Part shown: piece after piece, positions 8,842-31,351 of the stretch
How the letters are laid out: each line of letters opens with the position of its first letter
Numbering within the stretch: position 1 is the first letter of the stretch
Assembly: GCA_003650365.1 (NCBI GenBank)
Contig: QMPA01000007.1
Coordinates: 1-38,947, forward strand
DNA from: Bacteroidota bacterium
GTDB taxonomy: Bacteria; Bacteroidota; Bacteroidia; Bacteroidales; F082
Direction: 5' to 3'
DNA length: 38,947 nucleotides
Program-made: the position numbers and the translations under genes
Notes under the pieces: model-generated
Databases searched by the model: none
Told to the model about the DNA's origin: nothing
The model's input: the letters and a program-made list of their open reading frames with translations, nothing else

Positions 8842-9360
8842 ATGATGAAGAAGAATCAGATACAGGAAAAAATTACTAAATCTATTGTTAGGATTAGGAA
8901 TCAAAGAGTCCTTCTTGATGTTGATTTGGCAAGCCTTTATGGTGTAGAAACAAAAGTACTAAAAAGAGCGGTTCGCAGAAATACCGATCGTTTTCCTGAA
9001 GACTTTATGTTTGAGTTAAGTAAAGAAGAGTGGTCCAACTTGAGGCGCCAATTTGGCACCTCAAGTGAATGGGGCGGAACGCGTTTTCCACCTTTTGTTT
9101 TTACTGAACAAGGTGTAGCCATGCTTTCTTCTGTGCTCAACAGCCCACAGGCCATTCAAGTAAATATTTCCATTATGCGTGTATTTGTAAAAATACGGCA
9201 GTGGGCAGCTAACTACAAAGAATTATTACTAAAGATTGAAGAGTTACAACAATCCGAATCGGAGCAGAATCAACATATAGCAAGGATTTATCAAATTATT
9301 GAAGAACTGCTTCAACCACAATTAACAGACCGTAATCCAATTGGCTATAAATTAAAATAA
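8842..9360 (+). CDS. ORF6N-domain DNA-binding protein
   Basis: IVRIRNQRVLLDVDLASLYGVETKVLKRAVRRNTDRFPEDFMFELSKEEW...FVFTEQGVAMLSSVLNSPQAIQVNISIMRVFVKIR is the ORF6N signature. Confidence 0.92.
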   Translation: MMKKNQIQEKITKSIVRIRNQRVLLDVDLASLYGVETKVLKRAVRRNTDRFPEDFMFELSKEEWSNLRRQFGTSSEWGGTRFPPFVFTEQGVAMLSSVLNSPQAIQVNISIMRVFVKIRQWAANYKELLLKIEELQQSESEQNQHIARIYQIIEELLQPQLTDRNPIGYKLK

Positions 9361-9366
9361 TTTACC

Positions 9367-10542
9367 TTGACCAACTCCCCATCCCGATACGACCAACGTG
9401 GTGTTTCAGCATCTAAAGAAGATGTACACGCAGCCATAAAGAATCTTGACAAAGGACTTTTTCCGAATGCCTTTTGCAAGGTCATTCCCGATTTGCTGGG
9501 CGGCGATCCCGAATATTGCAACATTATGCATGCCGACGGGGCAGGAACCAAATCATCATTGGCTTATTTGTATTGGAAAGAAACCGGCGATATCTCAGTC
9601 TGGAAAGGCATTGCACAGGATGCCATCGTAATGAATACCGATGATCTGCTATGTGTGGGGATAACTGACGATATTCTACTTTCTTCGACCATTGGCCGCA
9701 ACAAAAACCGGATTCCCGGAGATGTGATTGCTGCTATCATAAATGGTACCGAAGAGTTTCTGGAAAATATGCGCAAACTGGGTGTTCAAATGTTTTTAAC
9801 AGGTGGCGAAACAGCCGATGTTGGCGATTTGGTACGGACAATTATTGTCGATTCAACAGTAACGGCAAGGGTTAAAAGGAGTGAAATTATCGAGAATAAT
9901 ATCCAAGCCGGTGATGTGATTGTCGGATTAGCTTCTTTCGGGCAAGCCACTTACGAAAATGAATACAATGGCGGCATGGGAAGCAATGGCCTCACTTCGG
10001 CACGCCACGATGTTTTTCAACACAGCTTGACCAAAAAATATCCCGAAAGTTTCGACCCTGCTATTCCCAAAGATTTAGTGTATTCCGGAAAATTACAACT
10101 CGCCGGCCCAAGCCCTGTGGAAGGAGTGAATGTTGGCAAACTTGTTCTTTCCCCTACGCGAACCTACGCACCGATAGTAAAAGCCGTTCTGGAGAAACAT
10201 GACCGAAAAAATATTCACGGCATGATTCATTGCAGTGGTGGGGCACAGACAAAAGTGCTTCATTTTGTGGACAAACTGCATATCATCAAAGACAATTTAT
10301 TCCCCACTCCTCCCCTGTTCGAAATGATACAATCGCAATCGAATACCGACTGGAAAGAAATGTACAAAGTATTCAATATGGGCCACCGCATGGAATTTTA
10401 TGTGCCCAAAAAAATGGCTGAATCCTTGATTTCTATTTCAAAAAGCTTTGATGTGGATGCTAGGGTTGTGGGCAGGGTTGAGGCATCTTCTACGAAGAAG
10501 CTCACAATTAAATCCAAATACGGGGAGTTTTACTATGATTAA
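9367..10542 (+). CDS. purM: Phosphoribosylformylglycinamidine cyclo-ligase (AIR synthase), TTG start
   Basis: YDQRGVSASKEDVHAAI...HADGAGTKSSLAYLYWKETGD...IAQDAIVMNTDDLLCVG...FLTGGETADVGDLVRTIIVDSTV...GLASFGQATYENEYNGGMGSNGLT. Only a TTG is available, 7 nt after the ORF6N stop. Confidence 0.9.
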   Translation: MTNSPSRYDQRGVSASKEDVHAAIKNLDKGLFPNAFCKVIPDLLGGDPEYCNIMHADGAGTKSSLAYLYWKETGDISVWKGIAQDAIVMNTDDLLCVGITDDILLSSTIGRNKNRIPGDVIAAIINGTEEFLENMRKLGVQMFLTGGETADVGDLVRTIIVDSTVTARVKRSEIIENNIQAGDVIVGLASFGQATYENEYNGGMGSNGLTSARHDVFQHSLTKKYPESFDPAIPKDLVYSGKLQLAGPSPVEGVNVGKLVLSPTRTYAPIVKAVLEKHDRKNIHGMIHCSGGAQTKVLHFVDKLHIIKDNLFPTPPLFEMIQSQSNTDWKEMYKVFNMGHRMEFYVPKKMAESLISISKSFDVDARVVGRVEASSTKKLTIKSKYGEFYYD

Positions 10543-12037: not shown

Positions 12038-12586
12038 ATGGAGAAAGGAGTACCAGACAAAATTTCGGCAATCCCTGAAGAAATAATAATGAACAAGATT
12101 CTTGTAATCAGGAACAGTAGGGTTATGATAGACCGGGATCTTGCTGCACTATATGGGGTAACTACCAAACGTTTAAATGAACAGGTGAAAAGAAATACAA
12201 AACGGTTTCCCAATCATTTTATGTTTCAACTGACAAATGAAGAAAAAGAATATCTGGTCGCAAATTGCGACCACCTCAAGAGTTTAAAATACTCACCTTA
12301 TCTACCCTATGCATTTACAGAACACGGAACCATCATGCTCGCAAATGTTTTAAACAGTGAACAAGCTATTGTAACAGGAATAAAAGTAGTAGAGGTTTTT
12401 ATAGCAATGCGTGAGATGCTCCTAAACAATAAAGCTACGCATAATGAAATTGAACTCATCAAAAAACAATTATTGGAACAAGGTAAAAAAATAGTTCTGG
12501 TCTTCGAATACCTTAAACAGTTTGAGAAACTGAAGCAGGAAAAAGCAGAATTCAAAAACAGAACACGAATAGGTTACAAAAAATGA
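12038..12586 (+). CDS. ORF6N-domain DNA-binding protein located between xdhA and xdhB
   Basis: ILVIRNSRVMIDRDLAALYGVTTKRLNEQVKRNTKRFPNHFMFQLTNEEKEYL...YAFTEHGTIMLANVLNSEQAIVTGIKVVEVFIAMRE. Homologous to the 8842-9360 product; its stop overlaps the xdhB start (ATGA). Confidence 0.92.
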   Translation: MEKGVPDKISAIPEEIIMNKILVIRNSRVMIDRDLAALYGVTTKRLNEQVKRNTKRFPNHFMFQLTNEEKEYLVANCDHLKSLKYSPYLPYAFTEHGTIMLANVLNSEQAIVTGIKVVEVFIAMREMLLNNKATHNEIELIKKQLLEQGKKIVLVFEYLKQFEKLKQEKAEFKNRTRIGYKK

Positions 12587-14939: not shown

Positions 14940-16145
14940 ATGAGCGAAATATTTTCAAAAATCAAATCCCTCTCTGAAGAATATTCAGATTATACTGCAA
15001 AAAACCTTTCTAAACTGGTTCAGATTAAATCACTGAGTACGGAAGAAAAGGAAGTGCAACTCGAATTGAAACGCCAGATGGAAGAAGCCGGTTTTGATGA
15101 AGTTAAAATAGACGGATTGGGAAATGTAATCGGCCGCATTGGCAATGGAAAACGAATACTTGCCATTGACGGACACATGGATACCGTTGATATTGGCAAC
15201 CTCAGCAATTGGGATTTTGATCCGCTTGGCGGTGAAATAAAAGATGGTTTTGTACATGGCCGGGGTACTGTTGACCAGGAAGGTGGTCCGGCGGCTTTTG
15301 TTACTTCAGGAAGAATTTTGAAGGAGTTGGGATTTGACAAAGACCTGACAATTTATTTTGTCGGCAGTGTGATGGAAGAAGATTGCGATGGCCTCTGTTG
15401 GAAATATATTGTTGAAGAAAACAAGATAAAACCCGACTTTGTCATTAGTACCGAACCAACTGCGCTAAACATTTATCGTGGTCACCGTGGCAGGATGGAA
15501 ATGCATGTTAGTTTTTATGGGGTTTCTTCTCATGGTTCTGCACCAGAGCGAGGCAAGAATGCCATTTATATGGCTTCAAAAGTTGCACTTGAAATTGAGA
15601 AGCTGAATGAGCAATTAGCTACTGATGAATTTCTGGGAAGAGGTAGTGTTACTATCTCCGAATTTGTTTCCGAAAGCCCATCACTTTGTGCTGTATCTGA
15701 TTTTGCCCGTTTACATCTTGACCGTCGATTAACCTGGGGAGAGACAAAAGAATCGGCAGTAAAAGAAATACAGCAACTCATCGAAGGCATGAATGCTAAA
15801 GTTGAACTGCTGGATTATTTTGAAGAAGCTTATACAGGATTAAAATATGGAATGGAAAAATATTATCCCACCTGGAAATTACCTGAAAATCATGAAATTG
15901 TTCAGACCGGCGTGGGTGCTTATCAGAAATTGTATGGAAAAAAACCAAAAATAGACAAATGGACTTTTTCCACAAATGGGGTTGTAACTCGTGGTGTTTA
16001 TGGAATTCCGACCATTGGCTTTGGCCCCGGCAACGAAGTCCTTGCTCATGCCCCCAACGAAAAAGTAGCCATTACTGACTTGGTTGTTGCCTCCGCGTTT
16101 TATGCTGGTTTTGCTTATGGTATTTGTGATTCACAACTGCTCTGA
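14940..16145 (+). CDS. ygeY: YgeY-family M20 metallohydrolase (SDMH/purine cluster)
   Basis: M20 motifs LAIDGHMDTVDIG, HGRGTVDQEGGPAAFVTS, GSVMEEDCDGLCW; followed by a YgeW-like gene as in SDMH clusters. Confidence 0.88.
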   Translation: MSEIFSKIKSLSEEYSDYTAKNLSKLVQIKSLSTEEKEVQLELKRQMEEAGFDEVKIDGLGNVIGRIGNGKRILAIDGHMDTVDIGNLSNWDFDPLGGEIKDGFVHGRGTVDQEGGPAAFVTSGRILKELGFDKDLTIYFVGSVMEEDCDGLCWKYIVEENKIKPDFVISTEPTALNIYRGHRGRMEMHVSFYGVSSHGSAPERGKNAIYMASKVALEIEKLNEQLATDEFLGRGSVTISEFVSESPSLCAVSDFARLHLDRRLTWGETKESAVKEIQQLIEGMNAKVELLDYFEEAYTGLKYGMEKYYPTWKLPENHEIVQTGVGAYQKLYGKKPKIDKWTFSTNGVVTRGVYGIPTIGFGPGNEVLAHAPNEKVAITDLVVASAFYAGFAYGICDSQLL

Positions 16146-16268: not shown

Positions 16269-17456
16269 ATGAACCTTACAGAAAGAATAGAAAGCCTTTC
16301 CCAAATAAAATCAGCACTTTATCAAAAAGATTTCCTGCTTACATGGGAAAAAAGTAAAGCTGACTTAAAAGCAATTCTTGAGATTGCTGATTTATTGAAA
16401 AATCTGCGAGAGGAAAACATTTCGCCCAAGGTTTTTGATTCAGGCCTGGCAGTTTCCATTTTCAGAGATAACTCAACACGGACACGCTTTTCTTATGCTT
16501 CTGCAGCCAACCTGCTTGGGCTGGCTGTTCAGGATATGGATGAAACCAAATCGCAAATCGCACATGGCGAAACAGTCAGGGAAACCGCGAATATGATTTC
16601 CTTCTTAACTGATTTTATCGGCATTCGGGATGATATGTATTTGGGCGAAGGCAACAAATATATGCGCGAAGTTGCAGCAGCTTTGGATGAGGGATTTGAA
16701 AAGAAGGTGCTGCCTTCCCGGCCCGGAATTGTAAATCTGCAATGCGATATGGACCATCCAACCCAATCCATGGCCGACCTGTTGCACCTAAAGAATACCT
16801 ATGGTTCGCTGGAAGCATTAAAAGGCAAAAAGATTGTAATGAGTTGGGCGTATTCGCCAAGTTATGGAAAACCCATGTCGGTGCCACAGGGCATTATAGC
16901 TTTAATGACCAGGTTTGGGATGCATGTAGAACTGGCTTATCCTGAGGGCTATGATCTCATCCCTGAAATAGTTGAAAAGGCAGGGAAAAATGCAAAAGAA
17001 AGTGGTGGCTCTTTCAAAATCAGTCATTCAATGGATGAAGCTGTGAAGGATGCCGATATTGTTTACCCGAAAAGTTGGGCTCCTTTCCATATTATGGAGC
17101 AGCGGACTGAATTATTAAAAAATAAAGATGCCGAAGGTCTGGCTGCACTTGAACAGGAGGCTTTGCTAAATAATGCAAAATTTAAAAACTGGGAATATAC
17201 TGAAGAAATGATGAAAAGCACAAAAGGTGGTAATGCCCTTTACATGCACTGTCTTCCTGCCGATATTTCGGGTGTTTCCTGCGCAGCAGGTGAAGTGGAA
17301 GGTGCTGTTTTTGAAAAATACCGGATAAAAACTTATCATGAAGCCGGTTACAAACCTTATATTATTGCTGCCATGATGTTTGCCAATAAATTTGAAAAGC
17401 CTGCCGAAGTGCTTCGAAGTATTTTTGAAAGTGGACTAAAACGGCTTCGTTTTTAA
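16269..17456 (+). CDS. ygeW: YgeW-type (knotted) carbamoyltransferase
   Basis: FRDNSTRTRFSYASAANLLGL (carbamoyl-phosphate site), DMDHPTQSMADLLHL, YMHCLPADISGVSCAAGEVEGAVFEKYR; in SDMH context. Confidence 0.9.
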   Translation: MNLTERIESLSQIKSALYQKDFLLTWEKSKADLKAILEIADLLKNLREENISPKVFDSGLAVSIFRDNSTRTRFSYASAANLLGLAVQDMDETKSQIAHGETVRETANMISFLTDFIGIRDDMYLGEGNKYMREVAAALDEGFEKKVLPSRPGIVNLQCDMDHPTQSMADLLHLKNTYGSLEALKGKKIVMSWAYSPSYGKPMSVPQGIIALMTRFGMHVELAYPEGYDLIPEIVEKAGKNAKESGGSFKISHSMDEAVKDADIVYPKSWAPFHIMEQRTELLKNKDAEGLAALEQEALLNNAKFKNWEYTEEMMKSTKGGNALYMHCLPADISGVSCAAGEVEGAVFEKYRIKTYHEAGYKPYIIAAMMFANKFEKPAEVLRSIFESGLKRLRF

Positions 17457-18812
17457 CAGACTTCCTTTTCGAATATCTTGGGACAATCTATTTTTCTCCA
17501 AAACTACTTTCCCATCTAAAATTACATATTCTGGGGTACCTTTTGTTTTTATGCCTTCGTAAATATTCATATCACAATTCTGGTGATGCGTTTTTACAGA
17601 AATTGTATTTTCTTTTCCCGGATTCCAAATCACAATATCAGCATCAGAACCTTCGGCAATAATTCCTTTTGCGGGAAACATCCCAAATATTTTTGAGGCA
17701 TTTGTTGAAGTGATGGAAACAAATTGCTCCATCGAAATTCTCCCTCCTAAAACCCCATAAGTAAAAAGCAAAGCCAGGCGATGCTCAACGCCCCCGGCAC
17801 CATTTGGGATCTTCCTGAAATCATCTTTACCCATTTCTTTTTGCTCCTGCGTAAATGGGCAATGGTCAGTGCCAACGGTTAGTACAGTTCTATTACTAAT
17901 CGCCTCCCAAAGTGCAGCGTTGTCTGATGGTTTTCGCAATGGCGGACTCATTACAAATGGTGCAACCTGATTAAAAACCCCATTATATTTAGAATCATCC
18001 AATAACAAATATTGCGGACAGCTTTCAGCCATAACAACCTGTCCATTCTCCTGCGCTTCGCTGATGTATTTTAGGGATGCTTTTGTAGAAACATGGACAA
18101 TGTAGAGCGGACAGTTCGCTACTTTTGCCAATTCAATGGCCTTTTTTACAGCCTTTGCTTCCAGTTCTGCCGGACGTGATAATGAGTGGTATTTTGGGCT
18201 CAACTTATTATCACTGGCAAATTGAGTTCTCAATTCCTCAATATCATCGCCCAATTCGCAATGGACAGTTACCATACCACCAGCCTTACTCACAGCTTTC
18301 ATAACCTTCATCAGCACATCATCATTTAAACCAATGCTATCCTTATAAGCCATATAAACTTTAAACGACTTGAAACCTTCCTTGTTTACACAGTTTCTGA
18401 TTTCATCCTCCATCGAATCCCGCCATTCAACAGGACTTACATGAAAGGCATAATTTGTAAGGCAGTTTGCAGCTTCTGATTTTCGTTGACTTATTGCATC
18501 GTTAAGTGCTTGCCCTTTTTTAGGCGTAACAAAGTCGATTAAGGTGGTTGTTCCTCCATAAATGGCAGCCCGGCTACCACTCCCAAAATCATCAGAAGAG
18601 AAACCAGCCGGAGAAGGTAAATGCATATGGACATGTGGGTCAATGCCTCCCGGAATGACATAGCAATTTGATGCATCGATTATTTTATCGGGTGTTGAAT
18701 CGGGAATTAAATCTTTCTCAATTTTAATAATCTTTCCATCCTTACAGAGCACATCGGCAATTTTGTTGCTATCGGTATTAACAACTGTTCCGTTTTGAAT
18801 CAAAAGTGTCAT
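17436..18812 (-). CDS. hyuA: Dihydropyrimidinase/hydantoinase-family amidohydrolase
   Basis: VIPGGIDPHVHMHLP, SFKVYMAYKDSIGLNDDVLM (Lys ligand region), CPLYIVHVSTKASL, LTVGTDHCPFTQEQK. Confidence 0.92.
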   Translation of the reverse strand: MTLLIQNGTVVNTDSNKIADVLCKDGKIIKIEKDLIPDSTPDKIIDASNCYVIPGGIDPHVHMHLPSPAGFSSDDFGSGSRAAIYGGTTTLIDFVTPKKGQALNDAISQRKSEAANCLTNYAFHVSPVEWRDSMEDEIRNCVNKEGFKSFKVYMAYKDSIGLNDDVLMKVMKAVSKAGGMVTVHCELGDDIEELRTQFASDNKLSPKYHSLSRPAELEAKAVKKAIELAKVANCPLYIVHVSTKASLKYISEAQENGQVVMAESCPQYLLLDDSKYNGVFNQVAPFVMSPPLRKPSDNAALWEAISNRTVLTVGTDHCPFTQEQKEMGKDDFRKIPNGAGGVEHRLALLFTYGVLGGRISMEQFVSITSTNASKIFGMFPAKGIIAEGSDADIVIWNPGKENTISVKTHHQNCDMNIYEGIKTKGTPEYVILDGKVVLEKNRLSQDIRKGSLLKTKPF

Positions 18813-18954: not shown

Positions 18955-19614
18955 TCATAATAATTCCTTTACAAACAGTCCTTCATTATTTTCCTTAAAA
19001 CCCAATTTCTTCAGGTATTTAATATGCTTTGAAGTACCACCCTTTGCAATCACTTTTTGGTAATTTTCTTTAATAAAAATACTTTTTAAACGGTGATACA
19101 CATATTTCCCGTTTTTATAATCACGGTATTCCGGAACTACGTAGTCGAGGCCTACTTTTAAGATGTTTTCATCTTCTCTGTGGACCAGGAATATTCCGGC
19201 AACAGCCATGTTTCTCAATACAAAAAAACTGATGGTATTCATCTCCGGTTTGTAAACAAAATCCGGGAAAAACTTTTTAATTTCATCTTTATGGTAATCC
19301 AGGAATTTAAGCAAATACTTATTATCACCCCTCACTTCCAGTGTATCGAACAAATGTGTTTTTGTGTAGATTCTTATCAAATAATAAATATCAACCGCAA
19401 CGATAAATCCGTTCAGTGCCATTACTGGAAAAGCACTAATTAAAAATCCATAAGTGGCAAAAGTTGAAGCCCCTACAAGATTAATCCACCGAAACTTGAC
19501 AATTGAATTCATTGTCATCGAAAGGGCGATTACCCCCGATGCTGCGTAACCAATCCAAAGTAATACATTTGATTCCATATTTTTCAGTTTGTAACTTTTA
19601 ACTTTTTCGCTCAA
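18955..19614 (-). CDS. YgjV-like small membrane domain fused to a GNAT-acyltransferase-like C-terminal domain
   Basis: N-terminal TM segments (VLLWIGYAASGVIALSMTMNSIVKFRWINLVGASTFATYGFLISAFPVMALNGFIVAVDIYYLIRIY); C-terminus VVPEYRDYKNGKYVYHRLK...TSKHIKYLKKLGFKENNEGLFVKEL resembles the GNAT C-terminal motif. Confidence 0.6.
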   Translation of the reverse strand: MSEKVKSYKLKNMESNVLLWIGYAASGVIALSMTMNSIVKFRWINLVGASTFATYGFLISAFPVMALNGFIVAVDIYYLIRIYTKTHLFDTLEVRGDNKYLLKFLDYHKDEIKKFFPDFVYKPEMNTISFFVLRNMAVAGIFLVHREDENILKVGLDYVVPEYRDYKNGKYVYHRLKSIFIKENYQKVIAKGGTSKHIKYLKKLGFKENNEGLFVKELL

Positions 19615-19742: not shown

Positions 19743-21068
19743 TCACAATTTCTTCCAAAGCCGGTTTGCCTGTTCTTTTGTAAATTTCAATAATTCTTCT
19801 TCATTTACAGTTTGAATAATTTTATCTTTTACAATCAATTTTCCATCAGAAATTACATGCTGCACGTGATTAGAAGTCAATCCGAAAATAAAATGTCCAA
19901 GAAAGTTATTTTCATTTATTTCAGTTGGTGAATCATAGTCTAGCACAACTAAATTGTTTTCGCCATCACCAGTGTAACTATTGATGTTTAGATAATTGTG
20001 AGTTTTTCTAAAACGTCCATAAGCAGAAGTAAAATCAATATTATCATTTTCCTGACCAACAAAATAAGCAGCCTTAGAAGTCCGAAGCATGTCGCTGTGC
20101 ATTCCATCGGTTCCAAGCATTATCCTGTTTCCCATAGCATTTCCATTAAAATACCCAACATTATTATTGAGGTTACTTTCGGTATTCTGCACAACAAATG
20201 CTTTCGAGTTCCTGATCAACTTTCGTTCGTTTTCATTAACATGAAGGCAGTGCGCAAGTATCGTTTTTGAAGAATCCAGAACGCCAAAATCATTTAACCT
20301 TTCAACAACCCGTTTGCCATGATTTTGCATACACTGTTCCTGGTCAATTTTATCTTCAGCTACATGGATGTGTATCCCAGAGGCTTTATTTCTCATGAGC
20401 TCAGCAGCCTTTTCGAGGCTATCATCACCAACTGTAAACGATGCATGAAGTCCAACCAAGCCCTGATTTTTACTCAGATAATATTCAGTTTCTTCAAGTC
20501 CTTCCTGAGCCTTTTTCATTCCATTCCTATCCGTTATCTCGTAGCACAGCAGATGGCTTACCCCCACTTTTTCAAAAGCATGGGCAATCACATCGAGTGA
20601 ACCTTTGATATAATTTGGAGAAGCATGGTGGTCGATGACAAAAGTTGAACCGGCTTTTGCACTGGCCATAGCCGTTGCCAATGCGCTTGCTTCTATCATG
20701 TCTTTGTGCAGCGCTTTGTCAAGATTCCACCAAATATATTTCAGGATTTCCAGGAAATTGGCCGGTGTTTTTTCAGGAGCAGGCATTCCCCTTGCCAATG
20801 CCGAATAAGCATGATGATGTGCAATTGCAAATGATTTGGTTACTAATTTACCTTTGCAGTCAATGATTTCATCTTTTAGTGAAACTGGAATTTCACGAAA
20901 ATTATCAAAGAATGTTAATGAACCTGAAGTTCCCTCTTCAACTCTTAAATTAGTATTAGAAAAACTTAGGTTTTGCCAGTCAATAAAATTTGCGTTTTTT
21001 AGAATTACTGTCATATTAATGTTAGCATTAAGGTTTCGATTACTTTTCGCAAATCCGCCAAGACGCAA
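19743..21068 (-). CDS. ssnA: SsnA-like amidohydrolase/aminohydrolase
   Basis: IIDCKGKLVTKSFAIAHHHAYSALARGMPAPEKTPANFLEILKYIWWNLDKALH, GIHIHVAEDKIDQEQC, NVGYFNGNAMGNRIMLGTDGMHSDML. The true start is probably an internal ATG (MTVILKNANFI). Confidence 0.88.
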   Translation of the reverse strand: MRLGGFAKSNRNLNANINMTVILKNANFIDWQNLSFSNTNLRVEEGTSGSLTFFDNFREIPVSLKDEIIDCKGKLVTKSFAIAHHHAYSALARGMPAPEKTPANFLEILKYIWWNLDKALHKDMIEASALATAMASAKAGSTFVIDHHASPNYIKGSLDVIAHAFEKVGVSHLLCYEITDRNGMKKAQEGLEETEYYLSKNQGLVGLHASFTVGDDSLEKAAELMRNKASGIHIHVAEDKIDQEQCMQNHGKRVVERLNDFGVLDSSKTILAHCLHVNENERKLIRNSKAFVVQNTESNLNNNVGYFNGNAMGNRIMLGTDGMHSDMLRTSKAAYFVGQENDNIDFTSAYGRFRKTHNYLNINSYTGDGENNLVVLDYDSPTEINENNFLGHFIFGLTSNHVQHVISDGKLIVKDKIIQTVNEEELLKFTKEQANRLWKKL

Positions 21069-21130: not shown

Positions 21131-23677
21131 CTATCTTTTCAGTGGTAACTTAACCCTCTTCACTCCATCAAAAGCAAAAAGTGCGTTGGCAACAGCGGCG
21201 GCAGTCGGGACAAGTCCTATTTCTCCAATTCCTTTCGCGCCATAGGGACCGATTGGGTCTTTTACTTCCACTCCCTTGACAATTATTTCAGGGGTTTCGT
21301 GTGCACGAAGAATTCCCAATTTACGCATTTTGTCGCTTTCCAAAAAACCATCTTTCATGGGGAGGTTTTCGGTTAGTGCATAACCCAAACCCATGTGAAC
21401 GCCGCCTTCAATTTGTCCTTCAAAAAGCATGGGGTTCATAATTTTACCGGCATCGTGGGCGGCAATCATTTTTGAAATATTACCTTCATCATCCAAAATA
21501 CAAAGTTGGGCTGCGTAACCGTAAGAATAATGAATAATGGGGTCTTCAACACCGGAACCGGGTTTGCTGGTCCAGTCACAAATAAACTCCCCTTTATAGG
21601 TTTTTCCTGCAAGTGATTTCAGACTTTTCTCTTTCAAATCGGTTTTCAATCCTTTGGCGGCATTAATGACTGCCAGTCCGACCAAAGCTGTTGCGCGAGA
21701 AGAAGTTGTCATTCCGGTTTTAATCTGTGCTTCGGTATCAACCACAACCCTTATTATTTCAGGATTCACACCAGTTTCTTCACATAAAGTTTGCAAGGCC
21801 ATATTGTGTACACCCTGCCCCATTTCCGTCCAACCATGTTGAAGGATAATCTTTTTTTCAGAAACAACTTCTATAATCACCTTCGATTCATCATTCATGC
21901 CATTGCCAACACCAGAATTTTTGATGGCACAGGCCAATCCAGAATATTTGGCATTGTAAAAATCAGCCTTAACGGCATCGAGACAGGCACGAATTCCGAC
22001 ACCCATTAGTTTTTGTCCTGTTGATGTTGTTAATCCGTCAACAAGTGCATTATCGTACCTGAATTGCCAGCGGTCGAAACCGGCTTGTTTACAAATATCA
22101 TCAATACAACTTTCGAGGGCAAAGGCAACCTGGTTTGCGCCAAAGCCACGCATGGCACCACTGGGAATATTGTTAGTATAAACTGTTTTTGCTTCAATGT
22201 CGATTTCCGGAATAAAATAGCCGCCAGAAGCATGTCCTGCTACGCGTTCCATCACTTTCATACCCACAGATGCATAAGCGCCAGTGTCGCCAACAGCCCT
22301 AAGTTTTAAAGCAGTGAGCTTGCCATTTTTATCGGCGCCTATTCGCATATCCATAAACACCGGGTGCCGCTTGGGATGCAGCCTGATTGATTCTTCGCGA
22401 CGCAATGCAAGTTTAACGGGTTTATTCAGTAAAAAAGCAAACAAAGTAGTATGCCCCTGCACACTTAAATCCTCCTTGCCACCAAAACCGCCACCATTCG
22501 GGACAAGAGTAACTCGTACTTTTTCCTCAGGCAAACCAAGTATCATGGCAACTTGTCTGCGGTCTTCATAAATCCCCTGACTCTGGCTAAACAGTTCGAT
22601 GCCTCCTTTTCTATCAGGCCGGGCGACAGCCGCTTCTTTTTCTAAAAACCCATGCTCGACACGCTGGGTTTCATACTGGTCGGAACTAACAAAATTTGAG
22701 GACTTTAATGCATCATCAGCATTGCCGATGGTAAATTGTATTGTTTCAAAATTATTTGGTTTTTCGGGATGAACCCGTTCACCATCAATCGCTTCAAAAA
22801 CATCAGTTACCGGTTTTTGAATTTCGTATTCAATCTCAATGAGTTCAATCGCTTCACGGGCAATCTTATCTGATTCGGCAACAACGCCAGCAATCACATC
22901 ACCAATATAATGCGTGATTTCTCCCTCGCCAATCATCAAAGGCCAATCTTGTAAAATCAAGCCTACTTTTTGTTCACCGGGAATGTCTTTTGAAGTAAAA
23001 ACCCGATGAACACCAGGATAATTTTCCGCTTTGGAAGTACTGATTTTTAAGATTTTTGCCTTTGGATAATCACTAAACTTCAAAGCTGCAAATAACATCC
23101 CTTCAAGAAAAATATCATCCACAAAATCACGTTTTCCGATAGCTGTATTGTAAGCATCGTATTTGGGATGGGGAACACCAACTCTTCCCGAAGTTTTGGT
23201 AATTTCCAGTTTTTCATTTTTACTGATGGCCTCTCCTGCACAGACAATTGCCTCTTCAATTTTCTTGTAACCGGTACAACGGCAAAGATGCGGCTTGATG
23301 GCTTTCCTTACTTCTACAATTGTTGGATGGGGATTGTTTTGCAATAAGACTTTTGTCCGGCTAATGAATCCCGGCGTACAAAAACCACATTGAACAGCAC
23401 CTTTGTTTACAAATGCTTTGGCAATAGTGTCCAAAACGTAATCAGGAAAGCCTTCAGGAGTTAGCACTTCTGCATCCTGCAATTTCTCCATTTTTACAAC
23501 ACATGATAACATTGCTTTCCCATTGATTTCAACGGTACAAGCACCACAAGCTGCCTGTCCCGAGCAACCATCTTTTACGGAAGTAATATGCTTATCTAGC
23601 CTTAGGAAATCCAACAATGACCTTTTAGGATTACCCTCGTATTTCTGTTTTTCCCCGTTTAGTGTGAATGAAATCAT
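21131..23677 (-). CDS. xdhD: Molybdopterin hydroxylase, 2Fe-2S and Moco domains fused (selenium-dependent xanthine dehydrogenase / XdhD-like)
   Basis: N-terminal ferredoxin (DGCSGQAACGACTVEI, QCGFCTPGFISR, LCRCTGYKKIEEA) fused directly to the Moco domain (NGGGFGGKEDLSVQ, SGAMRGFGANQVAFALES, GWTEMGQGVHNMALQTL, GAKGIGEIGLVPTAAAVANALF); no FAD domain. Confidence 0.88.
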   Translation of the reverse strand: MISFTLNGEKQKYEGNPKRSLLDFLRLDKHITSVKDGCSGQAACGACTVEINGKAMLSCVVKMEKLQDAEVLTPEGFPDYVLDTIAKAFVNKGAVQCGFCTPGFISRTKVLLQNNPHPTIVEVRKAIKPHLCRCTGYKKIEEAIVCAGEAISKNEKLEITKTSGRVGVPHPKYDAYNTAIGKRDFVDDIFLEGMLFAALKFSDYPKAKILKISTSKAENYPGVHRVFTSKDIPGEQKVGLILQDWPLMIGEGEITHYIGDVIAGVVAESDKIAREAIELIEIEYEIQKPVTDVFEAIDGERVHPEKPNNFETIQFTIGNADDALKSSNFVSSDQYETQRVEHGFLEKEAAVARPDRKGGIELFSQSQGIYEDRRQVAMILGLPEEKVRVTLVPNGGGFGGKEDLSVQGHTTLFAFLLNKPVKLALRREESIRLHPKRHPVFMDMRIGADKNGKLTALKLRAVGDTGAYASVGMKVMERVAGHASGGYFIPEIDIEAKTVYTNNIPSGAMRGFGANQVAFALESCIDDICKQAGFDRWQFRYDNALVDGLTTSTGQKLMGVGIRACLDAVKADFYNAKYSGLACAIKNSGVGNGMNDESKVIIEVVSEKKIILQHGWTEMGQGVHNMALQTLCEETGVNPEIIRVVVDTEAQIKTGMTTSSRATALVGLAVINAAKGLKTDLKEKSLKSLAGKTYKGEFICDWTSKPGSGVEDPIIHYSYGYAAQLCILDDEGNISKMIAAHDAGKIMNPMLFEGQIEGGVHMGLGYALTENLPMKDGFLESDKMRKLGILRAHETPEIIVKGVEVKDPIGPYGAKGIGEIGLVPTAAAVANALFAFDGVKRVKLPLKR

Positions 23678-24918
23678 AAGAGTAAGTTTTTCAGATTTTC
23701 AATTGAAGGAAAAATTGGTTTCGGCATCTTTATAACTCTTCCAACAGCCTTCAAATCTTTGAGTCCACTGCCTGTTAAAAGCACAACATTATTCGAGTCA
23801 TCAGTTAATTTGTTGGTGTTTTTATAGAATTGAAATCCTGCAAATGCTGCTGCTGCCGCGGGTTCTGCAAACAATCCGGTATTTTTAGACAAGATTGAAG
23901 ATGCTTCAATTATTTCGCTATCAGAAACTGAAATGTGCTCCCCCTGATATTTTTCAAGAAACATCTTAGCCATATAAAAGTTGCGTGGAATATCAACGGA
24001 AATAGAATCGGCAATGGAGGTACTTTTTTCTATTTCAAATTCTTTGTTTTCAATATTCCTCACAAGATTATCACTCTTTTTTGCTTGTACAGCAACAATT
24101 ATTGGCATGTGGTCGATTAGCTTTAGTTTGAGCAAATCTTCAAAGCCTTTATAAACACCAGAAATAATTACGCCATCGCCAACTGGGACAAAAATCCGGT
24201 CGGGAACCTTGTGGTTCAATTGCTCAAACAACTCAAAGGAAACCGTCTTTTTCCCTTCGATAGTAAACGGGTTGAAAGCAGTATTTCGATTGTACCAGCC
24301 AAAAGCTTCTGTAGCTTTAATGCTGAGGTCGAATGCATCGTCATATGTTCCATTGATTGGGACAATTGTTGCGCCATACATTAAAATCTGCGTAAGCTTT
24401 GCAAGAGGTGCTGAGCCGGGTACAATAACAATAGCCTTTTGACCTTGAGCAGCACAAATTCCGGCAAGCGAGGAACCGGCATTTCCTGTGGATGCTGCCA
24501 CGATGGTATTAAATCCCTTTTCTTTAGCATAGGCTGAAACAATAGCAGAAGCCCTGTCTTTGAAGGAATAAGTAGGGTTTTGTGAATCATCTTTAAGGAA
24601 AAGATTGAAAGGGAGTTTTGATTGATTAATCTTGTTGATTTTATAAAGTGGTGTATTTCCAATACTCAGGTTTGGAAGGCTTTTTATGTTGTTTATCGGT
24701 AATAAATCGATGAAATTGTTTTGCTTTAGACTATTGAAACTTACTCTTTCTTCGATTAGTTTCTGATAGTTATAAATTGTTTTCAGGACTCCTTTAGGTG
24801 GAAGGTTTGGCGTATTAGATTTACTACAGACAGGGCATAAATATTTTACTTGTGATGCTTCATGTTTAGCTCCACAATTGATGCATTCGTAATGATATTT
24901 GTTGGTAGTCATATTCAT
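23674..24918 (-). CDS. Threonine synthase-like PLP-dependent enzyme with N-terminal zinc-ribbon-like CxxC pair
   Basis: YHYECINCGAKHEASQVKYLCPVCSK; PLP site NPTYSFKDRASAIVSAYAKEKG; AASTGNAGSSLAGICAAQGQKAIVIVP; VLLTGSGLKD. Confidence 0.9.
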   Translation of the reverse strand: MNMTTNKYHYECINCGAKHEASQVKYLCPVCSKSNTPNLPPKGVLKTIYNYQKLIEERVSFNSLKQNNFIDLLPINNIKSLPNLSIGNTPLYKINKINQSKLPFNLFLKDDSQNPTYSFKDRASAIVSAYAKEKGFNTIVAASTGNAGSSLAGICAAQGQKAIVIVPGSAPLAKLTQILMYGATIVPINGTYDDAFDLSIKATEAFGWYNRNTAFNPFTIEGKKTVSFELFEQLNHKVPDRIFVPVGDGVIISGVYKGFEDLLKLKLIDHMPIIVAVQAKKSDNLVRNIENKEFEIEKSTSIADSISVDIPRNFYMAKMFLEKYQGEHISVSDSEIIEASSILSKNTGLFAEPAAAAAFAGFQFYKNTNKLTDDSNNVVLLTGSGLKDLKAVGRVIKMPKPIFPSIENLKNLLL

Positions 24919-24927
24919 CTGCTATTG

Positions 24928-25000
24928 TTTCTCGCAAAGGCGCAAAGGCGCGAAGTTTTTTGTTTCTATCTTCTTCGCGCCTTTGCACCTTTGCGAGAAA
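24928..25000. repeat. 28-bp-arm inverted repeat between two PLP-enzyme genes
   Basis: TTTCTCGCAAAGGCGCAAAGGCGCGAAG (24928-24955) and CTTCGCGCCTTTGCACCTTTGCGAGAAA (24973-25000), one mismatch in 28 bp. Confidence 0.9.
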
Positions 25001-25002
25001 TT

Positions 25003-26481
25003 TTATAAATACTCCTTTAAAACCCCCGTTCTTTCATTAAATTCCATTATTTCTTCATCCCATTCATCAAGCTTTGCGTAGCGTGACTTCCAATAATTCT
25101 CATCGTACCATTGTGCATTTAGTTCCTCAACAGTTTTACCTTGTTGTTCTATCCATGTGAAATATTTAAGGTTGTGCATACGTTTCTTCTCATAGTAATT
25201 CATCTCAATCATGTGGTCGATCTGGAGACCAAGTAAGTCGGCTTCATAACTTACTGCGGCATCCCTATTTGTAAACTCACCATGTAATTCATTTTCTTCT
25301 GCCAGGCGCGATTGGTACATTTCCATTGAATCGGTAGCCACCGAGAACACAAAATCGTTTTCATCCATTTCGTAATATTTAGCCAATTTGATAGAGCCCA
25401 TCAGGTTTGCAATGGATGAAATACCGAGAAGACCTAGTTTCTCAACCAGTTCAGGAGAAATCCCAAGTTCATTAATGAGGTATTCCTTTCCGGCAGGCTC
25501 ATTAAAAAGACGCATCAAACGGATGTTCGGATTGTCATCAATTCCGGCAACCATATCCATATTTCTGATATTGTGAATCCAGGGAACATGCTTGTCACCA
25601 ATACCTTCAATTCGGTGTTCTCCAAAACCATTTTCCAGGAGGGTTGGACACTGTAGGGCTTCTCCGGCACAGACCTTCATATTTGGATAAACTTCTCTTA
25701 GATAGTCAGTGCTTCCCAATGTTCCGGCAGAACCCTGAGTCAGAAAAACACCTGTGAATTTGTCATTTTCTTTTTTGAGGGAATTATAAACTTCTTCCAT
25801 TGCAGGGCCGGTTACTGCGTAATGCCACAATGGATTTCCAATTTCCTCGAATTGATTGAGATTAACAATTTCATCACCTCTTTCTGCCAGCAGTTCTTTT
25901 ACTTTATCATAAATTTCCTTCACATTGCTTTCTGTTCCGGGAGTTGCAAACACTTCTGCACCAACTTTATGCAACCAGTCGAAACGTTCCTTCGACATAC
26001 CTTCGGGCAATACCGCAATTGATTCACAACCCAGTAAATACGAATCGTAAGCACCTCCACGACAGTAGTTCCCGGTTGATGGCCACAATGCTTTTTGCCG
26101 TGTTGGGTCAAATTTTCCAGTAACCAGTTTTTCTACCAGAGGGCCAAAGGTAGCACCCACTTTATGTGCACCAGTGGGGAAATATTTACCAATGAGCAAA
26201 ACAATACGGGCTTTTACACCAGTCAGTTCGGGAGGAATCTCCAGGTAGTTTACACCCTGAAAGCCACCTCCAAAATCTATCGGTTCATTTTTCCAGTTGA
26301 TACGGAAAAGATTTAAGGAGTTTAAGTCCCACAGTCCTATATTTTTTAACTTATCCTGTATTTTTTGGGGAATCAATTCCGGATTGCGCATTTGTTTGTA
26401 AGTGGGCAATATGATGTGGCGCTCACGGCATCTGTTGATGGTGTTTTCTAAAACCTGTTCTTTCGTCATTATTTTATCCAT
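25003..26481 (-). CDS. PLP-dependent enzyme of the tryptophan synthase beta/cysteine synthase fold-type II superfamily (unknown substrate)
   Basis: FPTGAHKVGATFGPLVEKLVTGKFDPTRQKALWPSTGNYCRGGAYDSYLLGCESIAVLPEGMSKERFDWLHKVGAEVF; FLTQGSAGTLGSTDYLREVYPNMKVCAGEA. Confidence 0.85.
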   Translation of the reverse strand: MDKIMTKEQVLENTINRCRERHIILPTYKQMRNPELIPQKIQDKLKNIGLWDLNSLNLFRINWKNEPIDFGGGFQGVNYLEIPPELTGVKARIVLLIGKYFPTGAHKVGATFGPLVEKLVTGKFDPTRQKALWPSTGNYCRGGAYDSYLLGCESIAVLPEGMSKERFDWLHKVGAEVFATPGTESNVKEIYDKVKELLAERGDEIVNLNQFEEIGNPLWHYAVTGPAMEEVYNSLKKENDKFTGVFLTQGSAGTLGSTDYLREVYPNMKVCAGEALQCPTLLENGFGEHRIEGIGDKHVPWIHNIRNMDMVAGIDDNPNIRLMRLFNEPAGKEYLINELGISPELVEKLGLLGISSIANLMGSIKLAKYYEMDENDFVFSVATDSMEMYQSRLAEENELHGEFTNRDAAVSYEADLLGLQIDHMIEMNYYEKKRMHNLKYFTWIEQQGKTVEELNAQWYDENYWKSRYAKLDEWDEEIMEFNERTGVLKEYL

Positions 26482-29400
26482 TTATTTATTTGCATAAAAA
26501 TTGAGTGCTCCCTGAAGAATAATATTCATTTCGGCAGCTATCGTTAAATCCTGTTCAAATTTAGTTTTTTCTTTTACTTCTATATCAATCACGCGCAAAG
26601 TTGCAGGCTCAAGTTTCACCTTGAATTGTTCGCCTTCAAAAATGGCAAAATCAGATCCAATTGTGAAACGGTATTTTTGTTTTTTTTGATAAGAAAGTAA
26701 TGCTGAAAATCCATTTTCAAATTCCAAAAAATAACCATCTCTTTCCTTTTCAAATATTACTTTGTCGAGGTACAAATGTGGTTTTTCGAGATAGGGTGCT
26801 CCAGCAGTTGGACAGAAAGTATCGCAATTACCACATTGGTTGCACCAATCGGCGATGTGAATTATCTGTTGCTTTTGTTTGATTTCAAATGTATTTCCCT
26901 CCGTGATTTTTACCTGATTTCCTGCAACAATCACTTTTTGAATATTGTAACTTTCAGGCTCAATTTCATAAGAATGAAAGGCAAGGTTCGGACAGACTGT
27001 TGTGCAAATATTACATACTTCATCGCACAAAAGACAGCGGGAGGCTTCACGCATCGCTTCTTCCTCCGTGAGAGTTGTGCTTACCAGTTTGAAGTTTTTC
27101 CTATCATCCAAAGCAGTTTCCACAGTAGTTTGCGGTTTAATCCTTTTGGATTTTCTTATCATCAGACTTCTAACGTCCTGATGTTCCCTGTCACTTTCTA
27201 GCTGCGTATTAAAATCAATTCCTGCTTCATCAATAATTTCCTGCGCCGCCTTACGTCCATCACCGACGGCATTGATTGCTGTTGATGCTCCGCGCATGGC
27301 ATCGCCCCCGATAAACACATTGGGCAATTTGGTTTTGTAGCTGTTTTTGTTGGTGAGCAGTTCGGTGCTTTCAGCGAAATCGATGTCAATTTCCTGTCCA
27401 ATAGCCGGAATCAATGTGTCCATTTGAATTTCAAATTCCGACGCTGGAATTTCTACAGGTCTTTCCCTTCCTGAACTGTCCTTTTCACCCAATTTCATCC
27501 TGCTGCAAATAAGCGAACTTACGTGACCATTTATTACATTTACCTTTAATGGTGATGCCAATTCAACGATTTCGATGCCTTCTTCTAAAACGGCTTTTAT
27601 CTCGCCTAAATCGGCTGGCATTTGCTTGATAGTCCGTCTGTAAACAACGGTGACTTTTCCATTATTACCCACCAATCGATAAGCAGTTCGTGCTGCATCC
27701 ATGGCTGTGTTTCCGCCACCAATGATGACAACACTATTGCCCATTCCACTGCCGATGGATTTCTTCACATCAAATAAAAAGTCCAGTGGGTCGAGTACTC
27801 CTTTTGCATCGATACCTGGCAGTTCAGGTTTTATCGACTTTCTGGCTCCTGTTCCGATGTAAATAAAATCAGATTTGCGCTGTAAATTCTGAAATGACTG
27901 TTTGTCAATTTCCTGATTGTAATGAATTTCGACACCCAATTTTAGAATGGAATGAATGTCAATTTCTATGGCTTCATCGGTCAATCTGAAAGAGGGGATT
28001 GCACCAGAGACCATCCCGCCGGCCTTACTTTTTGTTTCATAAACATCAACTTTAAACCCGGCTTTGGCCAGAAAATAAGCGCAGGACAAACCGGAAGGCC
28101 CCGCTCCAATTACTGAGACGGAGAGTAGTTTTTGAGTTGTTGCTTTTTCTTTGTGAGACGATTCGTTTATATAATTCTCAGCAACAAACCTTTTGATTTC
28201 CCTTATCAATAAAGGGCTGTCATAATTTATGCGTGTACATTTTGTTTGGCAAAGATGGTCGCAAACCATACCTGTGGTATGTGGAAACGGATTCGTCTGT
28301 AGAATTATTTCTGCTGCTTTTTTAAAGTCTCCCCGGGATGTATAATACAAATAATCGGGTATGCCCTGATTGGTCGGACAGGTATCGACACAAGGTGCGT
28401 GAATACAATCAAAGTACTTTAACTCTCTGTCGGTTTTTATACTTGGGTCCTTAAATCCTGTTTTTTTGTAAGCTGCTGATTTTTCAACTTCTTCGGCATA
28501 AGCATTCAGGTTTTTCAGTGCGATATTTTGGTCTTCGGCATTCGTAGTGGAAAGGTTTTCAATGTATTGATTGAGCCTTCCGTAACCGCCGGGTTTTAAC
28601 AAATCGGTACAAATGGTTACAGGGCTCAGTCCACAGTTTACGATATCGGCAACATTGAAAGCATCGGCACCACCTGAAAAAGAAATATCGAGATTGCCAT
28701 TAAACTGATTTTGCAATTTAGAAGCCAGATTTATCGAAATAGGATGCAATGCCTTGCCACTCATGTACATCATTTCTTCGCTTGCGCCGAAAACTTCTTT
28801 GTGATTGAGACTTTCAAGTGTGTTTGTTAGTTTGATACTGAATCGCACTTGATTTTCATCTGCCTTCTTTTGCAGGTTTTTGATAATTATTAATGCATCT
28901 TCATACTTCAAGTCATGTTCAAAAGCAATATTAGGAACCTTGGTTTCAAAGTGAGAGTTGCGGAGAATTTCATGCAATTTTTCCTTTCCCAATAAAGTAG
29001 GGTTTAGCTTAATTGCCGTGTGTAACTTTTTATTCTCGATTAAATATTCACCAATGGTTTCAATTTCATCGGCAGGGCAGCCGTGCATGGTAGAAAGTGT
29101 AATATTATTGGAGATACAGGGGTTTATCTTTAGGTTTACAATATTGGGGTAAATGGATTTTACACTTTCAATTTTCTCTTCCAATTCCTTGGAGGCATCT
29201 CTCATCTTGTCAAAAAACCACTGTACATTATCTTTCAGAATCCCTTGGAAATCGTAGCCAACGCTCATATTGAAAATGACGCCTGGTTCATCAGTTTTGT
29301 TATGATTTAATTTATCACGCAAAATGTGAATGATAATCCATGCGTTCAGGTATTGTTCAAACGACTGCTCAATTTTTAGCTCCTGTGACCATTCACGGTT

Positions 29401-29721
29401 GTAACCCTCGTCCTGCATATCGATGCAAGGTTTCGACACTTCCAATTCATCAAGGGTTTGTATGGTTTTCAATTCGATGAAACGGGCTCCGCATAGCCAG
29501 GAAACAACAATATTTTGGGTAAGTTGCGTTTGCGGGCCGGCTGCGACGCCGATGGGTGTCTCCAGCAATCTGCCAAATCTCCGGCTTCGAAGTGACTGGT
29601 TTTGAACAGGATTGAAAAACAATTCTTCATTGAATCCAAAGATACTTCTCTTCTTATCGTACTGATTGAGTATTATTTTTAATAATTCGTTTAATGGTAG
29701 TATCGAAAAGCTGTCTGTCAT
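26482..29721 (-). CDS. ygfK: YgfK-like oxidoreductase (DHOD-like + GltD-like FAD/NAD(P) + Fe-S domains; annotated as putative selenate reductase subunit)
   Basis: RFGRLLETPIGVAAGPQTQLTQNIVVSWLCGARFIELKTIQ; CIHAPCVDTCPTNQGIPDYLYYTSRGDFKKA; VSVIGAGPSGLSCAYFLAKAGFKVDVYE; VVIIGGGNTAMDAARTAYRL; CLLCDEVCNICTTVCPNLAF; WCNQCGNCDTFCPTAGAPYLEKPHLYLD. Confidence 0.93.
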   Translation of the reverse strand: MTDSFSILPLNELLKIILNQYDKKRSIFGFNEELFFNPVQNQSLRSRRFGRLLETPIGVAAGPQTQLTQNIVVSWLCGARFIELKTIQTLDELEVSKPCIDMQDEGYNREWSQELKIEQSFEQYLNAWIIIHILRDKLNHNKTDEPGVIFNMSVGYDFQGILKDNVQWFFDKMRDASKELEEKIESVKSIYPNIVNLKINPCISNNITLSTMHGCPADEIETIGEYLIENKKLHTAIKLNPTLLGKEKLHEILRNSHFETKVPNIAFEHDLKYEDALIIIKNLQKKADENQVRFSIKLTNTLESLNHKEVFGASEEMMYMSGKALHPISINLASKLQNQFNGNLDISFSGGADAFNVADIVNCGLSPVTICTDLLKPGGYGRLNQYIENLSTTNAEDQNIALKNLNAYAEEVEKSAAYKKTGFKDPSIKTDRELKYFDCIHAPCVDTCPTNQGIPDYLYYTSRGDFKKAAEIILQTNPFPHTTGMVCDHLCQTKCTRINYDSPLLIREIKRFVAENYINESSHKEKATTQKLLSVSVIGAGPSGLSCAYFLAKAGFKVDVYETKSKAGGMVSGAIPSFRLTDEAIEIDIHSILKLGVEIHYNQEIDKQSFQNLQRKSDFIYIGTGARKSIKPELPGIDAKGVLDPLDFLFDVKKSIGSGMGNSVVIIGGGNTAMDAARTAYRLVGNNGKVTVVYRRTIKQMPADLGEIKAVLEEGIEIVELASPLKVNVINGHVSSLICSRMKLGEKDSSGRERPVEIPASEFEIQMDTLIPAIGQEIDIDFAESTELLTNKNSYKTKLPNVFIGGDAMRGASTAINAVGDGRKAAQEIIDEAGIDFNTQLESDREHQDVRSLMIRKSKRIKPQTTVETALDDRKNFKLVSTTLTEEEAMREASRCLLCDEVCNICTTVCPNLAFHSYEIEPESYNIQKVIVAGNQVKITEGNTFEIKQKQQIIHIADWCNQCGNCDTFCPTAGAPYLEKPHLYLDKVIFEKERDGYFLEFENGFSALLSYQKKQKYRFTIGSDFAIFEGEQFKVKLEPATLRVIDIEVKEKTKFEQDLTIAAEMNIILQGALNFYANK

Positions 29722-29823: not shown

Positions 29824-30444
29824 ATGACGAATTCACTAGTAATGATAAAAAAAGATTGTTCAGCACTTATTCTTGTAGCGGGAAATTCATCCCGGATGGG
29901 AAGCCCGAAATTTTTATTAAAAATGCCTGATGGGGCATCTTTTCTGGAAAGTTTGGCGCATCAATATGCAGGCTTTGGCTGTACCGAAATAGTTGTTGTC
30001 CTGAGCAAAGAGGGACTTCAACTTATAAAAGACAAGCCACAACACCTTCCTTCACAAATACAAATTGTAATCAATACACATATCGAGTTTGGACGATTCT
30101 ATTCAATAAAAAAAGGACTAAAACAGCTGAGTACCGAATCCGTTTTTATTCATAATATTGACAATCCATACGCAAATAAAAATGTATTGGAACAAATTTA
30201 CAAGGCCAAATTAGAAGGCGAAGTCATTAAACCGATACTAAACGGAAAGGGTGGACATCCTGTTTTAATATCAAAAAGAGTGTGTGAATTAATATTAAAT
30301 GAAAATAACAACGACCAAAACTTTAAAGTATTCCTGAATAATTTTAGCACGAAAAAAGTAGAAGTTAAAGATGAAACGGTTTTACTGAACATAAACACCT
30401 ATGACGAATATTTGGAATTTTATAGCAGAGAAATTAAAAGATAA
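29824..30444 (+). CDS. mocA: MocA/YgfJ-like molybdenum cofactor nucleotidyltransferase
   Basis: CSALILVAGNSSRMGSPKFLLKMPDGASFLESL (NTP-transferase motif), HNIDNPYANKNVLEQI, NGKGGHPVLISKRV. Confidence 0.85.
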   Translation: MTNSLVMIKKDCSALILVAGNSSRMGSPKFLLKMPDGASFLESLAHQYAGFGCTEIVVVLSKEGLQLIKDKPQHLPSQIQIVINTHIEFGRFYSIKKGLKQLSTESVFIHNIDNPYANKNVLEQIYKAKLEGEVIKPILNGKGGHPVLISKRVCELILNENNNDQNFKVFLNNFSTKKVEVKDETVLLNINTYDEYLEFYSREIKR

Positions 30445-31351
30445 TCACACGCTTTACCTGATGGTAAACATTGAAAGCTACGGAAGTAGCCCCGGAAAAA
30501 AAGGCTTCAAAATGGCTGTTTCATCAGATGGCTCAATCAATGGTTCTATTGGTGGCGGGGTAATGGAACGCAACCTGGCTGAAAAGTCCCGGCAACTTCT
30601 AAAAACAAAAAAACGTACTACATTCCTGCTTGAGCAGGACCACCATCCCAAAGCCGGAAAAGAAGGTTCGGGAATGATTTGTTCAGGAAAACAAAGTGTT
30701 GCATTCTTCCAACTGGATGTAAAACACCTTGCTACGATTCAGGAAATTATCACTTCCATCGAACAAAATATACCCGGTGTGCTACGGATTTCAAGCGACC
30801 ATTTACTATTTGACAAAGGAACAATACTGACTACGGAAAACAACCAAATCCAAACAGGGGAACAATGGAAATTCACCGAACAATTGGGACTTCCAGACCA
30901 CCTCTACATTTTCGGTGCCGGGCATGTAGGACTGGCACTAAGTCAGATATTCAGTATACTGGATTTTCAAGTAACTATTTTCGATAACAGGCAAGGACTG
31001 AATACTTTTGAAGAAAATATTTTTGCTGACCACAAAAAGATAATCGACTATCAGAAAATTGAAAAGCTTATCCCTGAAGGGGAAAACATTTATGTGGTGG
31101 TGATGAGCTTTACACATAAAAATGACGAACTAATTATTCGTCAACTATTGCCAAAAAAACTAAAATACCTGGGGATGATGGGAAGTACAATGAAGGTAAA
31201 AACCATTTTCGACACTTTACAAAAAGAAGGATTCCATCAAAGTCAACTCGATAAAATAGACGCCCCCATTGGCCTTGAAATTGGTAGTGAAACCCCTTCA
31301 GAGATTGCCATTAGCATTGCTGCGAAGATTATTTCTGTACGGCGGGATTAA
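30401..31351 (+). CDS. xdhC: XdhC/CoxI-family molybdenum hydroxylase maturation protein
   Basis: VNIESYGSSPGKKGFKMAVSSDGSINGSIGGGVMERN; DHLYIFGAGHVGLALSQIFSILDFQVTIFDNR; KYLGMMGSTMKVKTIF; APIGLEIGSETPSEIAISIAAKII. Overlaps the mocA-like gene by 44 nt. Confidence 0.92.
   Translation: MTNIWNFIAEKLKDNHTLYLMVNIESYGSSPGKKGFKMAVSSDGSINGSIGGGVMERNLAEKSRQLLKTKKRTTFLLEQDHHPKAGKEGSGMICSGKQSVAFFQLDVKHLATIQEIITSIEQNIPGVLRISSDHLLFDKGTILTTENNQIQTGEQWKFTEQLGLPDHLYIFGAGHVGLALSQIFSILDFQVTIFDNRQGLNTFEENIFADHKKIIDYQKIEKLIPEGENIYVVVMSFTHKNDELIIRQLLPKKLKYLGMMGSTMKVKTIFDTLQKEGFHQSQLDKIDAPIGLEIGSETPSEIAISIAAKIISVRRD

Follow-up and report, generated by a model that had tools for sequence, protein, structure and literature searches.

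Contig QMPA01000007.1 (38,947 nt; hereafter, the window) belongs to the 3.66-Mb draft genome of a Bacteroidota bacterium (GCA_003650365.1; 385 contigs, 94.5% complete) and carries a reductive uric acid cluster in which two pyridoxal 5'-phosphate (PLP) enzymes, here termed P1 and P2, accompany the pathway genes. The minus strand encodes, in transcription order, ygfK, P2, P1, xdhD, ssnA, a 219-aa protein and hyuA, beyond which come ygeY and ygeW, both encoded on the opposite (plus) strand (Table 1). The ATG of P2 abuts the ygfK stop codon with zero gap and the 3' end of P1 overlaps the start of xdhD by 4 bp, so that ygfK-P2-P1-xdhD look co-transcribed. XdhD, YgfK, SsnA, HyuA, YgeW and YgeY, the gene set by which such clusters are recognised, thus occur together (SsnA below its curated cut-off), with identities to the E. 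coli counterparts of 34% for SsnA, 38% for HyuA and YgfK, 51% for YgeY and 67% for YgeW. In E. coli, the cluster comprises XdhD-YgfK-SsnA-HyuA-YgeW-YgeY-YgeX, and the chemistry of the pathway steps up to 2,3-diaminopropionate (DAP) is established (PMC12507026). Homologues of all these proteins but YgeX are clustered in the window, which has P1 and P2 instead. A sequence-only reading of the window had described, between xdhD and ygfK, a zinc-ribbon threonine-synthase-like protein with an SFKDRAS motif (P1) and a 492-aa protein with a GAHKVGATFG motif (P2); the open reading frames, coordinates and motifs of both proved correct.

YgeX (TIGR03528, PRK08206), P1 and P2 have the PLP fold-type II domain PF00291 in common, but identity of P1 and P2 to YgeX is ~25% over some 130 residues and their scores fall far below the YgeX cut-offs. 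The YgeX motif TDGNHG, which includes the catalytic Asp120, reads STGNA in P1 (40 of 40 homologues) and STGNY in P2. In the phylogeny, the three proteins form separate clades, each with 100% bootstrap support, P1 forming a single clade (100/99) that falls among the threonine-synthase-like sequences and P2 being sister to CysK/CysM (100/99). A search of the whole draft genome with the YgeX model (TIGR03528) matched P1 (41.8 bits) and P2 (18.8 bits) alone, against a cut-off of 532; the earlier observation that the window holds no canonical YgeX hence extends to the rest of the assembly, and no true YgeX elsewhere in it speaks against a replacement. The missing gene in one incomplete draft is in itself no proof, and the cross-genome pattern does not depend on it: YgeX was not found in 39 of the 42 P1/P2 or pathway carriers searched, and in G559 and G567 it lies away from the urate genes, with P1 present too. 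A published cluster survey, in which Bacteroidota are not listed as a phylum with SsnA, scored as YgeX any PF00291 neighbour of SsnA, a criterion under which P1 or P2 may have passed for YgeX.

Owing to its threonine synthase fold and its score above the cut-off of the thrC model TIGR00260 (184.9 versus 167.1 bits), P1 would be named threonine synthase automatically. Its likeness to ThrC (PRK08197, TIGR00260) encompasses the fold (target template-modelling score, TM, 0.86-0.89), the SFKDR and STGN motifs, and a zinc ribbon, as in some archaeal-type threonine synthase models, of whose cysteines (C12, C15, C28 and C31) none is lost in more than one of 40 homologues. P1 departs from threonine synthases by the changes STGNT to STGNA, NS.NP.R to T-A/G.NP.T and GNxGN to GDGxI. 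We take residues T88, S155, R160 and N188 of Thermus thermophilus threonine synthase to bind the phosphate of the substrate phosphohomoserine; aligned solved threonine synthases keep them, whereas the corresponding columns hold A, A/G, T/L/M and I/T in 40 of 40 P1 homologues, the S155 column, which adjoins an alignment gap, being the least certain of the four. In addition, P1 invariably has an Asp (D248) where the cofactor-phosphate loop of threonine synthase has Asn185.

These replacements bear on one alternative, namely that P1 is a housekeeping threonine synthase lying in the cluster by chance, which we regard as highly improbable although P1 has the right fold and is the sole match above the TIGR00260 cut-off in its own genome. 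Homoserine dehydrogenase (PF00742), present in 14 of 14 control genomes, was not found in this 94.5% complete draft and is missing as well in 8 of the 11 relatives whose only thrC-like match over or near the cut-off is P1 (9 of 12 genomes altogether). Four P1-bearing relatives (G002, a single contig, G013, G018 and G065) carry a separate thrC that scores 276-284 bits, and P1 is kept in urate clusters across phyla. The altered pocket, the lack of homoserine dehydrogenase and the separate thrC genes led us to reject a housekeeping role, and with it the chance, allowed for in the sequence-only reading, that one of the two proteins was merely the cell's only threonine synthase. Many genomes of the same family seem to have neither thrC nor homoserine dehydrogenase, which suggests that threonine auxotrophy is common in it.

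P2, also a PF00291 protein of PLP fold-type II, had been likened to TrpB. The GAHK motif is indeed there, but the resemblance is confined to this lysine region: the best profiles and folds are those of CysK and cystathionine beta-synthase (CBS), in line with its position in the tree, and TrpB was consequently rejected as an identity. P2 resembles CysK/CysM/CBS in fold (target TM ~0.8) and in its NP..H...TGP and HRIEGIG motifs, and differs from them in the TrpB-like lysine motif, in large extensions at both termini and in an altered cofactor-phosphate loop. Scoring 95.5 bits with the cysK profile (cut-off 351), P2 is a relative, not a member, of the cysteine synthase/cystathionine beta-synthase family. 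Nor is it strictly urate-specific, a possibility ruled out by its occurrence without SsnA and with other neighbours. In Aminicenantes genomes devoid of SsnA, P2 stands behind an arginine-deiminase-family gene; at two such loci (L138, 8781-11470; L142, 8788-11476) this gene and one for a 151-aa protein resembling Lrp-type regulators precede P2, away from urate genes. The arginine-deiminase-family context is a clue to the general substrate of P2. At locus L147, P2 lies beside glycine cleavage genes, in a genome with SsnA-like proteins elsewhere.

The P1-P2 pair is conserved across Bacteroidota, Cloacimonadota, Neomarinimicrobiota, a spirochaete and other, mostly uncultured phyla, which rules out chance juxtaposition with the urate genes. 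Since the carrier genomes share ancestry and so are no independent samples, the counts that follow measure breadth, not probability. Within the genome's own family, P2 occurs in 41 of 150 genomes and P1 in 39, all P1 genomes having P2; the two P2-only genomes (G024, G033) yielded partial P2 matches. Parts of the unit P2-P1-XdhD-SsnA recur in neighbourhoods taken from 20 genomes of this family, usually with YgfK, HyuA, YgeW or YgeY near if the contig is long enough. Scanning of GTDB genomes revealed the same genes in different orders in Cloacimonadota, Neomarinimicrobiota and others. YgeW was detected in 6 genomes of a 397-genome Bacteroidota sample, all six with P1 and P2 and none with YgeX; in the five besides the present one, P2 is 56-58% and P1 38-43% identical to the proteins of the window, and P1 is always beside SsnA or at most two genes from it. 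The spirochaete genome G565 (locus L192) has YgfK-SsnA-YgeY-P1 together and P2 elsewhere, and P1 adjoins YgeY at L114, L192 and L195. Among 28 P2- or YgeW-positive genomes, P1 is present in 23 of the 24 with SsnA, the exception being G546, and absent from three of the four SsnA-negative P2 carriers, G566 alone having it.

Two further features of these clusters were recorded. In the spirochaete, a protein that combines alanine-racemase with D-serine-dehydratase domains (L192, 16334-17404) adjoins ygfK and would fit D-amino-acid intermediates. In Cloacimonadota (L110, 5565-9965, and L118), three YgeW-like paralogues in a row come before a YqeA-like kinase and P2.

The exceptional genome G546 (bacterium BMS3Bbin03, locus L112) presents a natural swap. 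There, a YgeX scoring above the cut-offs of PRK08206 and TIGR01747, bearing the TDGNHG motif and 41% identical to the E. coli protein lies directly upstream of xdhD, the usual slot of P1. The cluster retains P2, whereas P1 was not found in this genome, where the best match to it is a thrC-like protein of 28% identity. P1 and YgeX therefore appear interchangeable, and P2 is no substitute for YgeX. It is mainly on this swap and on the co-occurrence of P1 with SsnA that we assign the YgeX role to P1.

Collectively, these data lend good support, at the level of gene content, to a non-orthologous replacement of YgeX. Such a replacement by one or both proteins had been proposed from the window alone; the gene content and cross-phylum conservation bear out the proposal, while L112 narrows it, P1 being likelier than P2 to be the substitute. 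We therefore favour, with a probability of about 0.6, a variant of the uric acid pathway in which the conserved P1-P2 pair takes the place of YgeX and P1 acts as the DAP lyase, inferring the reactions of both proteins from gene content, linkage, co-occurrence, phylogeny and residue changes. XdhD, YgfK, SsnA, HyuA, YgeW and YgeY, all present by homology, would carry out the steps up to DAP. P1, a descendant of the threonine synthase lineage, would then form an aldimine through K120, hold the alpha-carboxylate of DAP in its STGN loop (S143-T144-G145-N146) and eliminate the beta-amino group as ammonia, giving 2-aminoacrylate and then pyruvate. The predicted pocket, where the phosphate-binding set is exchanged for small or apolar residues plus the invariant D248, seems to fit ammonium better than phosphate, and D248 could hold the ammonium group. 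P2 would work alongside P1, catalysing a beta-elimination or beta-replacement of the CysK/CBS type on what are probably amino acids of the same C3 family, its candidate substrates being the other DAP stereoisomer or the ureido precursor; alternatively, it might yield another amino acid by beta-replacement.

Several points weigh against this assignment. Asp120 of YgeX is Thr in 40 of 40 P1 homologues, making this residue unusable for D-DAP; P1 may therefore handle one isomer only, and P2 does not have the residue either. The L112 swap was seen just once, and in a draft genome; P1 occurs in G566, where SsnA was not found, and the near-constant presence of P2 is left unexplained if P1 suffices.

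Two other readings give P2 a larger part. P2 could itself be the DAP lyase, with P1 doing other work such as serine/threonine deamination or acting on another pathway intermediate. P2 often comes directly after YgeW/YqeA or next to YgeY, belongs with CysK/CBS-like proteins, a family that performs beta-elimination, and is more conserved than P1 (73% versus 52% mean column identity, the P2 value being inflated because its set was gathered by similarity to P2). We nonetheless find this quite unlikely, as P2 coexists at L112 with a true YgeX in the P1 slot and is found in genomes with neither SsnA nor P1. Unlikely too, if a live rival, is a sharing of the step, whereby lyases specific for L- and D-DAP, or a racemase-lyase pair, would together match the lone, stereo-promiscuous YgeX. 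This division of labour deserves attention because YgeX acts on both DAP isomers (PMC12507026, PMC4000059) and the stereochemistry of the pathway, with D or L intermediates, is unsettled (PMC12990295). The lack of Asp120 in both proteins and the near-perfect co-occurrence of P1 and P2 in the home family are consistent with it, but P2 would be redundant beside the YgeX of L112, and Aminicenantes and Caldisericum genomes have P2 without P1. More broadly, we tentatively consider that the two-enzyme end of the pathway might differ chemically from that provided by YgeX, either because DAP is split by stereoisomer or because P2 diverts DAP or aminoacrylate by beta-replacement, with a product beyond pyruvate alone.

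The open-licence literature that we searched contained no account of P1 or P2 in uric acid clusters. Anaerobic uric acid breakdown is relevant to purine balance in the gut and to gout, yet its enzymes were not worked out biochemically until 2025. Should P1 indeed replace YgeX, surveys relying on YgeX as the marker miss carriers in several phyla, and annotation keeps calling a purine-catabolic enzyme "threonine synthase". Such a replacement would also clearly exemplify the recruitment of a threonine-synthase-type enzyme to an ammonia-lyase step, and would give a functional setting to P2, whose CysK-like family is widespread and strongly conserved. Comparison of P1, P2 and YgeX makes the question of D or L pathway intermediates testable.

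Table 1. Genes and other features of the uric acid cluster and its surroundings, in window coordinates.
Feature	Description	Positions	Strand	Length, profile match or remark
P1	Zinc-ribbon, threonine-synthase-fold PLP enzyme; proposed YgeX replacement	23674-24918	-	414 aa
P2	CysK/CBS-clade PLP enzyme; GAHK lysine motif resembling that of TrpB, both termini extended	25003-26481	-	492 aa
YgfK	Yanthine reductase homologue	26482-29721	-	TIGR03315, 914.6 bits (cut-off 835.3)
XdhD	XdhD-like molybdenum hydroxylase, Se-dependent-type	21131-23677	-	TIGR03311, 865.5 bits (cut-off 830)
SsnA	Aminohydrolase	19743-21068	-	Best matches PRK07203, 375.8 bits, and TIGR03314, 341.8 bits, both below cut-offs
219-aa protein	Family not assigned	18955-19614	-	Conserved in the home family, flanked by ssnA and hyuA
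HyuA	D-hydantoinase (dihydropyrimidinase)	17436-18812	-	TIGR02033, 534.6 bits (cut-off 393)
YgeW	Carbamoyltransferase	16269-17456	+	TIGR03316, 638 bits, over cut-off
YgeY	Hydrolase	14940-16145	+	TIGR03526, 507 bits, over cut-off
MocA-like and XdhC-like	Molybdenum cofactor genes	29824-31351	+	
Hairpin	28-bp stem between P2 stop and P1 start	24928-25000		-51.5 kcal/mol, z -11.7
ORF6N protein 1	ORF6N-domain protein	8842-9360		
ORF6N protein 2	ORF6N-domain protein	12038-12586		
PurM/AIRS-type protein	Ahead of the xdh genes	9367-10542		TIGR00878, 104 bits, below cut-off

The hairpin that separates P2 from P1 is built of CGCAAAGGCGC-type repeats, and its motif was seen in only two other loci (L090, L128); it is perhaps a dispersed palindromic repeat that could change P1 expression relative to that of P2. 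The 219-aa protein, without any Pfam or NCBIfam match, keeps its place in many clusters of the home family. Elsewhere in the window, the genes of the two ORF6N-domain proteins, whose domain occurs in phage proteins, alternate with xanthine dehydrogenase genes, which the PurM/AIRS-type protein precedes. The first ORF6N protein has relatives within the urate cluster of L197 and upstream of that in L098.

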